Of a stretch of 64,000 bases of DNA, positions 14,386 to 62,852 are shown piece after piece. The translations under genes and the position numbers were made by a program. Under the pieces are notes generated by a model. The model saw nothing but the letters and a program-made list of their open reading frames with translations, was not told the DNA's origin and did not search any database. Where the stretch lies: NCBI RefSeq assembly GCF_007994225.1, contig NZ_VLLL01000007.1, forward strand, positions 189,191 through 253,190, in the 5' to 3' direction. Position 1 is the stretch's first letter; every line of letters starts with the position of its first letter. Source of the stretch: Stackebrandtia albiflava (GTDB taxonomy: Bacteria; Actinomycetota; Actinomycetes; Mycobacteriales; Micromonosporaceae).

Positions 14386-14578
14386 TCCACAAGCGCTTTT
14401 CCACAACCGGTGCGTCGTCCACAGGCCGGGCGGTCCGCAGTGGACGCGCCGACGACGGCGGCTCTAGGCTGAAGCCATGGGGTGGAGGAGTGGCGGCCCC
14501 CGAGGACGTCACCGGATCGGTGGGGGTGCCCGGACCGATCCGGCCGCCGGGCCGTCGTCAAAGACAGCCCGGCGGTGA
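14386..14578 (+). repeat. dispersed TCCACA/TAGGCT/micro-ORF element, copy 1
   Basis: TCCACA occurs at 14386, 14400 and 14418; the last two have an 18-nt period. After the last site come exactly 41 nt, then TAGGCT (14465-14470), 6 nt, and ATG at 14477. The micro-ORF encodes 33 residues starting MGWRSGGPR and stops at 14578. There is no Shine-Dalgarno sequence, so translation would be leaderless. It lies between the DUF1963 remnant and the DUF885 gene and points against the 3' end of the latter. It shares spacing and start sequence with the copies at 27.4, 37.0 and 62.7 kb. Confidence 0.75.
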
Positions 14579-27386: not shown

Positions 27387-27707
27387 TCCACAACCGGTGG
27401 GTTTTCCACAGCCCCGGACCGGCGGGCTCGACGAGCCCCCGGGACGGGACCTAGGCTCGACGCCATGGGGAGGAGGAGTGGCGGCCCCCGAGACGGTTCA
27501 GGGGCGGGGCTTTCGCGCCACCCCGCCGCCGTGACCGCCGGCGCCGGGTCGGGCCGCCTCCCCCGGTCTCACACCTGCGGGGCCTCCCCGATCGCCCGCA
27601 CCTCCACCGCCAGGTTGAGCGGTTCTCCGTCCGGGCCGGGCGCGGTGGACGCCTCCGCCGCGATGGCGATCGCCCGGGCGACGTCCTCGACCTCGACGAT
27701 CCAGTAA
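27387..27707 (+). repeat. dispersed TCCACA/TAGGCT/micro-ORF element, copy 2
   Basis: TCCACA at 27387 and 27405 (18-nt period), exactly 41 nt, TAGGCT at 27452-27457, 7 nt, then ATG at 27465. The reading frame begins MGRRSGGPRDGSG and stays open to 27707, running antisense into the 3' end of the YCII gene; how far it is really translated is unclear. It lies in the alr-YCII gap. The second site reads TTTTCCACA and the first TCGTCCACA, close to the Streptomyces DnaA box TTGTCCACA. Confidence 0.75.
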
Positions 27708-36962: not shown

Positions 36963-37080
36963 TCACATCGCTTGACGGGGGCCGCCACTCCTCCTCCCCA
37001 TGGCGTCGAGCCTAGGTGCGGCGCGCGCGGTGTGTCCAACAGGGACGCGGCCGCCTGTGGATAACCGGGCCGCCTGTGGA
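36963..37080 (-). repeat. dispersed TCCACA/TAGGCT/micro-ORF element, copy 3
   Basis: This copy is on the minus strand. Two perfect TTATCCACA boxes (TCCACA at 37075-37080 and 37056-37061, 19-nt period) are followed by exactly 41 nt, TAGGCT (37009-37014), 7 nt, and ATG at 37001. The micro-ORF is only 12 residues, MGRRSGGPRQAM, and ends in a TGA that overlaps a possible tatD GTG start. The boxes also lie within the C-terminal codons of the SDR gene, so that protein ends inside the element. Confidence 0.8.
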
Positions 37081-37920
37081 TAACCGGGACAACAGGTCGG
37101 CCGTCATCGCCGCCAGGCGGCGGGCGTCGGCGGGGTCGAGGGTCTTCAGGGTGGACGGCAGCCGCCTGCCCCGGTCGATCGCGGTCAGCGCGTCACGTGG
37201 CGGCGCGTCGACCCAGTCCACGACGGGAGCCGCCGACCGGGCCACCGGGCGGGCCGCCACCGCGCCGAGCACCCGGATCACCCACCGCGCCGGAGCCGGC
37301 AGAGTCGACAGGTCACCGCTCCTGGTGAATCCGGGGTGGTACATGACGTACGGGACCACACCCCCGTACCGCTCCGCGTAGGAGACCCCGAGCAGGTCGT
37401 TGGCGCGACCCGCCTGCAGTTGCGCCTTCACCGGGCCGTATCCGCGCGTCAACTGCGGGTCGTCCCAGTGGATCGCGCCGGCGGTGACGCCCACACCCGC
37501 GACACTCACGATCACCGGCCGGTGGGCGGCCTCCAGCAGCGGCCGCAGTTCCTCACCGAGCAGGTGACGGCTCAGGTAGTACAGTGCGAACGTGTACTCG
37601 AACCCGTCGGTGGTCTCGACCCGGTGGGGGCGGGGACGGTTCGCGAACAACAGGAGCGCGTCCACCACGGGAGTCGTGTCGGCCACCAGCGCCGCCACCC
37701 GCCGGTTCTCCGCGACGACACTGAGATCGGCCCGGACGAAACGCAACCGCCCCGGCGACTCCCGCCGCCGCGCCTCCGCCTCCAACGCCCGGCCCTTGGC
37801 CTCGTTGCTGCCGATCACCGTCACGTGGTCGCCGTGAGCGAGCCGCGCCAGGGCGGTGGCCCGGCCCATCCCGTCCGTGCCGCCACTGACCACCACGACC
37901 TTCGATTCATCGTCTGACAT
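37012..37920 (-). CDS. short-chain dehydrogenase/reductase-like protein
   Basis: A 302-residue Rossmann-fold protein. The NAD(P)-binding motif is VVSGGTDGMGRATALARLA, followed by FVRADLS and LLLFANRP, which matches the retinol-dehydrogenase-like group. The active-site region is less canonical: VIVSVAGVGV replaces the usual Ser strand, and the YxxxK position reads YGPVKAQLQ. The substrate is unknown. The last residues (RLSTGGPVIHRRPRPCW) are encoded by the copy-3 DnaA-box-like repeats. It is divergent from an HxlR regulator 49 nt away, which probably controls it. Confidence 0.82.
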   Translation of the reverse strand: MSDDESKVVVVSGGTDGMGRATALARLAHGDHVTVIGSNEAKGRALEAEARRRESPGRLRFVRADLSVVAENRRVAALVADTTPVVDALLLFANRPRPHRVETTDGFEYTFALYYLSRHLLGEELRPLLEAAHRPVIVSVAGVGVTAGAIHWDDPQLTRGYGPVKAQLQAGRANDLLGVSYAERYGGVVPYVMYHPGFTRSGDLSTLPAPARWVIRVLGAVAARPVARSAAPVVDWVDAPPRDALTAIDRGRRLPSTLKTLDPADARRLAAMTADLLSRLSTGGPVIHRRPRPCWTHRARRT

Positions 37921-37955
37921 GGGCACCATCGTCGGTACCGGGTCGGGATTCCCAC

Positions 37956-48339: not shown

Positions 48340-49572
48340 TCAGCGGCCGGCGTCCCCACCCGCAGGGCCGTCCAGTGCGTCGATCGTGGCGTGGGACGGC
48401 CCGGTCTCCGTGGCGAGCCGGGCGGCGACCTGTTCGGTGCGCCGCAGTACCCGCAGCACGTTCCCGTAGGTCAGTTTCGCGAGTTCCGCGTCGCTCCAGC
48501 CGCGCCGGGCCAGTTCCTCCAGCAGTCGCGGATAGGCGGCGACGTCGGTGAGGTCGGTCGGCGTGGTGGCGATGCCGTCGAGGTCTCCTCCGATACCGAC
48601 CGCGTCGACGCCCGCCCGGTCCCGGATGTACTCGACGTGATCGGCCACGTCGGCGGAGGACACCGGCGGGCAGGGGTTCTCCGCCAGCCACTCCTCACGC
48701 CGCCGGCGCCGTTCCCGGTACGCCTCCTCGCTGGCGTTGTCGTCCTCCCACTGCGCGGGGGTGCGGCCCTCGGCGGCCTCCAGGGCGTCCATCCACTCCC
48801 GCCCCGCCTCGGTGAGGAAGCCGGGCACGAAGGTGGCCATGACGATGCCGTCGGTCTGCCGGACCAGGTCGAGGACGTCGTCGGGGACGTTGCGGGGGTG
48901 GGAACACAGCGCGAGCGCGTTGGAGTGGGAGAAGAACGCGGGTGCCCGGCTGGTCGCCAACGCGGCCCGCATCGTGTCGGGGCTGACGTGCGAGAGGTCG
49001 ACGAGCATCCCGAGCCGGTTCATCTCACGCACCACCTCGTGCCCGAACGGGCTCAGCCCGCCGGAGGCGGGTTCGTCGGTGCCGCTGTCGGCCCAGGCGG
49101 TGTTGCTGGTGTGGGTGAGCGTCATGTACCGCACACCCAGGCGGTACATCATGCGCAGCGTCCCCAGCGAGTCCCCTATGGAGTGGCCACCCTCCATTCC
49201 CAGCAGGGAAGCGATCCGGCCGTCCCGCACCGCCGCCTCGACGTCGTCGGCGCTCCCGGCGAACCGCAGCGCGTCGTAGCGTTCGATCATCTGGTGAGCG
49301 GCATCGATCTGTTCGAGGGTCGCGGTGACGGCCGACTCCCCGGCCAGGGTCACCGGCACGAACACCGACCAGAACTGGCCCCCGACGCCACCGGCCCGCA
49401 GCCGGGGCAGGTCGGTGTGCAGCCCGAGGGGGGACTGGTCCAGGGTGAGGTCGGTGGCGTCGAAGTCGTAGCGGTTCAGGCCGCGAAGCCGGATCAGCAG
49501 GTCGTTGTGGCCGTCGACGACGGGAGATTTCTCCACGACGGCGTACACCCGGTTGGCGAGGTCTTCAGACAT
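48340..49572 (-). CDS. membrane dipeptidase family (M19) zinc dipeptidase
   Basis: A 410-residue TIM-barrel dipeptidase. Zinc ligands are in VVDGHNDLLIRL (His-x-Asp), the bridging Glu in LGMEGGHSIG, His in LVDLSHVSPDTM, and His in FFSHSNALALCSHPRNV; Asp in GIGGDLDGI completes the site. There is no signal peptide, so it acts in the cytosol, probably on dipeptides. The ATG has TAGGCT 7 nt upstream, a leaderless start. Confidence 0.93.
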   Translation of the reverse strand: MSEDLANRVYAVVEKSPVVDGHNDLLIRLRGLNRYDFDATDLTLDQSPLGLHTDLPRLRAGGVGGQFWSVFVPVTLAGESAVTATLEQIDAAHQMIERYDALRFAGSADDVEAAVRDGRIASLLGMEGGHSIGDSLGTLRMMYRLGVRYMTLTHTSNTAWADSGTDEPASGGLSPFGHEVVREMNRLGMLVDLSHVSPDTMRAALATSRAPAFFSHSNALALCSHPRNVPDDVLDLVRQTDGIVMATFVPGFLTEAGREWMDALEAAEGRTPAQWEDDNASEEAYRERRRRREEWLAENPCPPVSSADVADHVEYIRDRAGVDAVGIGGDLDGIATTPTDLTDVAAYPRLLEELARRGWSDAELAKLTYGNVLRVLRRTEQVAARLATETGPSHATIDALDGPAGGDAGR

Positions 49573-62664: not shown

Positions 62665-62852
62665 TCCACAACCGCCCCGTCGTCCACAGGCCACCTCCGC
62701 TCCACTGGCGCCGGGTGCCGAAACCGTTCTACGATCCACATATGGGGCGGAGGTTGGAGGCCCCCGGGACCCACCGGGCGAGGTGCCACGCCGCCTCCCC
62801 CGGACCACACACCGATCCGCCCGGTACCACGGTTCACCACTCGCGGCGGTAG
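62665..62852 (+). repeat. dispersed TCCACA/TAGGCT/micro-ORF element, copy 4
   Basis: TCCACA at 62665 (TTGTCCACA) and 62683 (TCGTCCACA), 18-nt period, then exactly 41 nt, TACGAT (62730-62735), 6 nt, and ATG at 62742. The micro-ORF starts MGRRLEAPG and runs 36 residues to 62852, overlapping the 3' end of GNAT copy 2 on the other strand. This is the most diverged copy, having lost a few bases after ATGGGGCGGAGG, yet it keeps the spacing. Confidence 0.72.

Follow-up and report, generated by a model that had tools for sequence, protein, structure and literature searches.

The window, a stretch of 64,000 nucleotides of the Stackebrandtia albiflava genome, contains four copies of an element in which two TCCACA boxes separated by 12 nt (13 nt in copy 3) are followed, after exactly 41 nt, by a TANNNT hexamer and, after 6 or 7 nt more, by ATGGGGNGGAGG. 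The four copies and their spacing are as the original prediction had claimed, and shuffling gives an expectation of only 0.03 paired boxes for this stretch, compared with the four that were found. The features of each copy are as follows, the promoters and transcript starts being putative:

14386-14423, plus strand: copy 1, DnaA-like boxes, with an extra TCCACA at 14386-14391 and a pair at 14400-14405 and 14418-14423 (18 nt apart)
14441-14470, plus strand: copy 1, putative promoter, with -35-like TGGACG at 14441-14446, an 18-nt spacer and -10 TAGGCT at 14465-14470
14477-14501, plus strand: copy 1, predicted transcript start and 5' hairpin ATGGGGTGGAGGAGTGGCGGCCCCC, of a class that was folded computationally; motif GGGG..GGCCC at 14479-14499
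27387-27410, plus strand: copy 2, paired boxes at 27387-27392 and 27405-27410
27428-27457, plus strand: copy 2, putative promoter, with -35-like TCGACG at 27428-27433 and -10 TAGGCT at 27452-27457
27465-27489, plus strand: copy 2, predicted start and 5' hairpin of class A, folded computationally; motif at 27467-27487
37056-37080, minus strand: copy 3, paired boxes at 37080-37075 and 37061-37056 (19 nt apart, the sole such pair of 63)
37009-37038, minus strand: copy 3, putative promoter, with -35-like TGGACA at 37038-37033 and -10 TAGGCT at 37014-37009
36977-37001, minus strand: copy 3, predicted start and 5' hairpin of class A; motif at 36999-36979
62665-62688, plus strand: copy 4, paired boxes at 62665-62670 and 62683-62688
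62706-62735, plus strand: copy 4, putative promoter, with -35-like TGGCGC at 62706-62711 and -10 TACGAT at 62730-62735
62742-62765, plus strand: copy 4, predicted start and 5' hairpin of class B, ATGGGGCGGAGGTTGGAGGCCCCC, folded computationally; motif at 62744-62763

The proteins encoded next to these copies match the Pfam families DUF885, alanine racemase, YCII, GNAT acetyltransferase (two proteins), SDR-like and TatD DNase, and one neighbour has no Pfam match. The boxes of copy 3 overlap the called 3' end of the upstream SDR-like gene, and the TAG of its -10 TAGGCT (37009-37014, minus strand) doubles as the stop codon of that gene, called at 37012-37929.

The S. albiflava genome (G000; 5.55 Mb in 13 contigs) was searched with the pattern TCCACA-N35-55-TANNNT-N4-12-ATGGGG, as had been called for, which retrieved 55 matches and none in the reversed control. 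The string ATGGGGNGGAGG occurs 58 times (control 4), and the pattern extended to GGCCCC also gives 58 matches over the whole genome, with a control of 0. Dropping the ATG requirement brings the number of core copies to 67, in agreement with the expectation of many copies per genome, and the -10 sits 7-11 nt ahead of GGGG in every one of them. An alignment of 55 copies shows the conserved blocks to be the two boxes, a CTSGAC-like -35, a 17-18 nt spacer and a -10 reading TAGGCT or TACGCT, with a last block that runs from the -10 to GGCCCCC, where conservation stops. The predicted layout stands, except that conservation passes the 'ATG' and extends through a block of 20-21 nt that ends in GGCCC, the ATG itself not belonging to the conserved part. 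By eye the spacers look unrelated, in contrast to the conserved boxes, -35, -10 and start region, which supports the earlier view of a promoter family rather than a recent transposition. Three main sequence classes are found in this genome, namely ATGGGGAGGAGGAGTGGCGGCCCCC, ATGGGGCGGAGGTTGGAGGCCCCC and ATGGGGTGGAGG(AG or A)TGGCGGCCCCC.

The copies are unevenly distributed over the contigs. Among the 65 retrieved with a -10 required, 5 lie on contig C1 (2.08 Mb; none beyond 0.94 Mb), 30 on C2 and 12 on C3, and contig C8 has 6 copies in 127 kb. The scarcity on C1 has a p value of 5e-8, for a contig picked after the data had been seen, and an enrichment of the element near the origin is possible. 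An orientation by replication strand was considered and dropped, the copies on contig C2 lying on both strands.

Related genomes also carry the motif, as the original prediction had proposed to check: it is present in three other Stackebrandtia species, with 14, 12 and 19 copies in G004, G046 and G066, respectively, against 65 in S. albiflava, 0 in G083 and 0 in the control, all with a -10 required. In a family sample of 121 genomes, these four Stackebrandtia are the only ones with the motif. One genome per species was also scanned with one sub-pattern plus a -10, and 31 stretches matched: among them six belong to Ca. S. excrementipullorum, five to a Rhodothermales MAG and four to a Gaiella genome, and several come from further Actinomycetota and Bacteroidota. 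The matches in Ca. S. excrementipullorum and in G066 agree in their in-contig coordinates. When no promoter is demanded, the counts are 38 in the Rhodothermales MAG, 6 each in Gaiella FR_16 and Thermoleophilia Co-bin15, 4 in MGR_bin365, 3 each in MGR_bin294, a Cryomorphaceae MAG and Bacteroidetes B12T1B10, 2 each in GL140_4 and Robiginitalea, and a single copy in each of four further genomes, Hasllibacter being one. The match in Hasllibacter (L174) was taken as chance, a control match being found there too, and the viral matches were judged by eye to be chance.

Wider samples gave few additions. Only 2 of 395 genomes match in the sample of the Rhodothermales phylum, one being the same MAG, and 12 of 349 in the Gaiella class (control 1), of which eight had been detected before. 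The Actinomycetota sample has 35 matching genomes of 396, which besides S. albiflava show mostly single, chance-like matches in other loop forms, with control matches of similar frequency by eye; the match in G1069 (L312) may be real. The distribution is patchy, across Actinomycetota and Bacteroidota, and the element is rare elsewhere.

Promoter-like sequence in the host's own style lies ahead of nearly all the foreign copies, most of the foreign genomes having been detected by a pattern that required a -10. The -10 is found 5-7 nt before GGGG in 36/36 Rhodothermales copies, and a TANNNT at 4-11 nt is absent from 1/30 copies of the Gaiella group and 2/8 of the other Bacteroidota. The Rhodothermales copies have CC directly before GGGG in 30/36 cases, typically after TTAAGTTGAAA, which argues against actinomycete contamination of this MAG.

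The ATG that precedes the G tract had been read as the start of a leaderless micro-ORF. Such an ATG is present at the predicted start in 58 of the 67 S. albiflava copies, but this reading fails on the loss of the ATG, on the frame shift between classes and on the variable length of the ORFs. The nine copies without ATG keep the motif (at these paired-box sites the starts are ATAGGGG, ATCGGGG, ACGGGG, AAGTGGGG in three, GAGTGGGG, AGAGGGG and ACAGGGG), and the reading frame is not kept, since a one-nucleotide difference within the motif separates classes of 24 nt from those of 25 nt. The ORFs that begin at the ATG range from 8 to at least 502 codons, the longest exceeding the stretch examined, and no similarity was found among their translations past about the eighth residue. 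Moreover, AT stands ahead of GGGG in only 13 of the 102 copies counted in other lineages (10/28 in other Stackebrandtia, 0/36 in Rhodothermales, 0/30 in the Gaiella group and 3/8 in other Bacteroidota). We therefore regard a conserved peptide encoded by such an ORF as extremely improbable. A start codon hidden in the motif (NTG after GGAGG) was also ruled out, as several copies, e.g. GGAGGTCGGCGG, have none.

The invariant part of the element, at the predicted 5' end of the RNA, is GGGG-N-GGAGG-N(2-4)-GG-N-GGCCC, with a middle loop of 2 to 4 nt. We searched 16 genomes with a relaxed pattern that allows any base in the first loop, three G for four and two C for three, with the -10 still required, and obtained 179 matches, nearly the strict number. 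Counts in G000, G004, G046, G066 and G083 (65, 14, 12, 19 and 0) are identical to the strict ones, the Rhodothermales MAG gives 38, the same as without the promoter requirement, and MGR_bin365 gives 5 instead of 4, one extra; controls are 0 in 14 of the 16 genomes and 1 each in G004 and G311. Among the 150 matches listed of the 179, the first loop is A and the GGGG is complete in all, and G occurs in the single-nucleotide loops of none. This loop invariance agrees with a quadruplex in which the G register has to stay fixed. The fixed A of the first loop and the fourth 5' G, which a plain quadruplex does not require, suggest an added contact.

Folding with ViennaRNA is in line with such a structure. 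For all four forms tested, a stem with a two-layer G-quadruplex is preferred, with energies of -13.7 to -18.6 kcal/mol under the quadruplex model versus -6.8 to -9.9 without it, and for forms ending in GGCCCT, GGCCCG or GGCCCA the quadruplex is predicted in a shifted register (fewer 3' C). A quadruplex is predicted for 40/40 distinct motifs versus 115/800 shuffles, a difference that is partly built in, the search pattern itself demanding GG tracts; repeatedly fetched loci are counted more than once in the fold table, and it is the 40 distinct sequences that matter. A duplex stem attached to a quadruplex, with the GG tracts similarly spaced, occurs in RNAs of the sc1/Mango type, which are selected aptamers and not genome families.

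A downstream box is present in 64 of the 67 S. albiflava copies, with its first base 61 or 62 nt upstream of GGGG in 61 of them, and a box pair in 63, with a separation of 18 nt in 52, 17 nt in 10 and 19 nt in 1. The proposed fit to DnaA boxes holds for the most part: TTATCCACA, TTTTCCACA, TCGTCCACA and TTCTCCACA occur in the presumed oriC on contig C2, which was recognised by its box cluster alone, and TTGTCCACA, accounting for 15 of 127 element boxes, is absent from that cluster. The base after box 1 is mostly A, against G, C or T after the oriC boxes. A subset of the S. albiflava copies shows, by eye, a CCACNGTGG-like palindrome just upstream of box 1.

Box pairs are also found outside the element. 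Some paired-box sites, e.g. L003 and L018, carry no G-rich motif, and at L004, L020 and L081 the element's own pair is followed, about 145 nt downstream, by a second paired-box site that fronts an ordinary gene, which in L004 has an ssb-like start by eye. Some box pairs may thus serve normal promoters. Eleven genomes of genus g29 (most of L097-L108) have in common a site TCCACA...(T/C)TARC(T/G)TGKACGGATGGGG, which is probably one conserved leaderless gene start, unrelated to the G-rich element family.

The motif is constant and the upstream boxes vary by lineage. The copies of other Stackebrandtia have 11-bp spaced YYAAG/YTCAG repeats in 18/28 cases and at least one TCCACA in 20/28, and most fetched G046 copies keep the motif with different boxes. 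In Rhodothermales we find CTAG repeats in 27/35 copies (mostly 11-12 bp apart), CTAAT/CTCAT (11 bp) in 6/35 and neither in 2, copies less than 110 nt from a locus end being left out of the box counts, so that 35 of 36 remained. The 11-bp repeats recall OmpR/PhoB-family regulators. The DnaA-like boxes are not kept wherever the element is kept, and the replication-linked activator that had been put forward is at best lineage-specific, quite different boxes being found in other lineages.

The sequence after the motif also differs between lineages. A TTT follows GGCCC by 3-17 nt in 20/36 Rhodothermales copies versus a background of 5.25 from later windows (p ~1e-8), and in 4/8 copies of other Bacteroidota versus 1.75. 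No T-run above background follows the motif in S. albiflava (2/67 versus 1.9) or in the Gaiella group (0/30). A downstream terminator was looked for by folding in Stackebrandtia and not found; the next 90 nt have little structure (mean z -0.45; 6/58 below -2), nothing past the motif is clearly conserved and no RNA 3' end is visible there. Many copies of the Gaiella group show a second block around GGACATGTCC, 15-25 nt beyond the motif, those with a GGACATGTCC-like block being L173, L185, L187, L190, L193, L199 and L211.

Nearly all elements lie between called genes. As called by a simple codon-usage caller rather than a standard annotator, the downstream gene is convergent in 36/57 cases in Stackebrandtia (p 0.06) and 24/35 in Rhodothermales (p 0.04), jointly 60/92 (p 0.005), and it is in sense in 9/12 cases in the Gaiella group. 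The neighbouring genes are varied and ordinary: in sets of 69 and 127 flanking proteins, no Pfam family accounts for more than 4, which is what a trans-acting RNA would lead one to expect. Neither the Pfam counts nor a comparison of flanking ORFs across lineages revealed an evident recurrent family that might be a cognate protein, and no partner protein or target was found.

Some sites are retained between species. In thirteen cross-species pairs among 120 elements, a flanking open frame (the test used open frames, not genes) matches on the same side and in the same orientation, and both flanks match in seven of these, namely Gaiella/MGR_bin294, Gaiella/GL140_4, GL140_4/Co-bin15, Co-bin15/YX2bin12 and three Stackebrandtia pairs. 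In these seven pairs the sequence around the motif has diverged, and the motif is conspicuous by eye. Where only one flank matches and identity is low, e.g. in L015/L194, the pair may not be orthologous. The two-flank pair L015/L127 joins two Stackebrandtia species with different motif classes, suggesting class switching or gene conversion between copies. A likeness of L146 in G046 to the neighbourhood of copy 2 did not hold up as synteny, and synteny of copy 1 with L164 was ruled out, the gene in common being the one at 48340-49572 of the window.

This is a real, large multicopy element, and it is undescribed as far as we searched: we found no paper containing the 15-nt core string and no description of the element family in the open-licence literature searched. 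Reading the sequence, we give about an even chance to a family of very small, regulated non-coding RNAs, patchy in distribution and encoded by paralogous genes. We infer that each locus would combine tandem activator boxes with a housekeeping-type promoter and a transcript beginning a few nucleotides before GGGG. The first ~25 nt of this RNA would form a short G:C stem, whose loop N-GG-A-GG-N(2-4)-GG-N-GG closes, in the computed structure, as a two-layer G-quadruplex. The RNA would end soon after the hairpin, which in Rhodothermales is followed by a U run. The constant 5' hairpin would be the active part, most likely a handle for an RNA-binding protein or a common RNA target, and the remainder of the transcript could vary freely. 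A multiplicity of copies controlled by different regulators would provide dose and several inputs, the putative inputs being DnaA-type boxes and 11-bp OmpR/PhoB-like repeats in Stackebrandtia and two other box types in Rhodothermales.

The main rival, which we think rather unlikely, is an element acting in cis at the DNA level: transcription would open the duplex, the RNA would pair with the C-rich template and the coding strand would form a quadruplex or R-loop serving in recombination, as a roadblock or in nucleoid organisation, the RNA itself being a by-product. The topology recalls the Neisseria pilE G4 and its sRNA promoter, where transcription starts at the non-template G tract, as it is predicted to do here, and the downstream transcript is irrelevant; the pilE G4 is, however, one locus with a role in recombination (PMC3547852). 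By contrast, the present element has dozens of dispersed copies, an added stem and activator arrays. Conservation from about -12 to +25 covers the region opened at initiation and then stops, and the excess of convergent downstream genes (60/92) also favours an action on DNA. Two-layer DNA quadruplexes flanked by GGGG/CCCC are weak, however, and the position and orientation relative to genes are not fixed, as the sense genes of the Gaiella group illustrate. The U-run after the Rhodothermales hairpin makes sense for an RNA, not for DNA.

Two other explanations appear improbable to us. The boxes could bind DnaA to time replication, with transcription secondary, given that most of them match the presumed oriC, that 62/63 pairs are spaced by 17-18 nt and that copies are scarce on C1 (5/65) with 30/65 on the oriC contig C2. 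However, the boxes that accompany the motif are different in most fetched G046 copies and in every other lineage, a titration site has no need of an invariant transcribed hairpin, and the base following box 1 is mostly not that of the oriC boxes. Equally doubtful is a REP- or MITE-like repeat, non-autonomous and mobilised by a transposase: the copies are indeed dispersed, intergenic and patchy over phyla, but only the blocks are alike between copies, with unrelated-looking spacers, sites are retained between genera, and none of the 25 Pfam families most frequent in the neighbours is a transposase family.

Returning to the small RNA family, the comparison with known systems gives no identity. 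At the gathering score Rfam has no match in the window, 13 loci yield only a tRNA, and elsewhere only sub-threshold matches are found, so that the original claim of no identity with a known RNA family is supported as far as Rfam goes. The sole trace of CcsR type is a 19-nt, sub-threshold match to CcsR1 (11.8 bits) on the opposite strand to the L250 element. In the CcsR/cuckoo sRNAs, CCUCCUCCC is placed in a hairpin loop. These sRNAs are named in the Rfam title as carrying CCUCCUCCC, unlike the presumed transcribed strand here, which is G-rich. The sibling sRNAs (PMC4211561) and the CcsR/cuckoo type of anti-SD hairpin sRNA, from Rhizobiales and Rhodobacter, resemble the present family in having several copies with one short hairpin motif. 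Dispersed loci with an own promoter and a common segment, which define sibling sRNAs, are also what we observe in the 67 copies, with promoter-like sequence. The nearest described system is the FopS sRNAs (RbpB, Bacteroides thetaiotaomicron), which have dispersed copies (14), mostly intergenic or antisense, with own promoters, a common 5' part and a variable downstream part; they are described from Bacteroidaceae, are ~65-70 nt long and have a base-pairing seed (PMC11697453). The present motif differs in being a G-rich hairpin, with up to 67 copies and in two phyla.

A nearly invariant RNA start of 20-21 nt, repeated up to 67 times per genome, in two phyla and behind unrelated promoters, implies a strong and specific partner. 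We tentatively suggest, as a possibility with the odds somewhat against it, a new kind of riboregulatory system that has spread horizontally, in which dozens of independently regulated loci per genome would produce a tiny quadruplex-capped hairpin RNA for a dedicated, phylum-crossing partner (protein or RNA), with transcription factors supplied by the host. If the quadruplex is real, it would be an RNA G-quadruplex occurring naturally in bacteria, with dozens of replicates built in for genetic work, and the elements would form a very large family of sibling RNAs in which to ask why bacteria multiply such genes.
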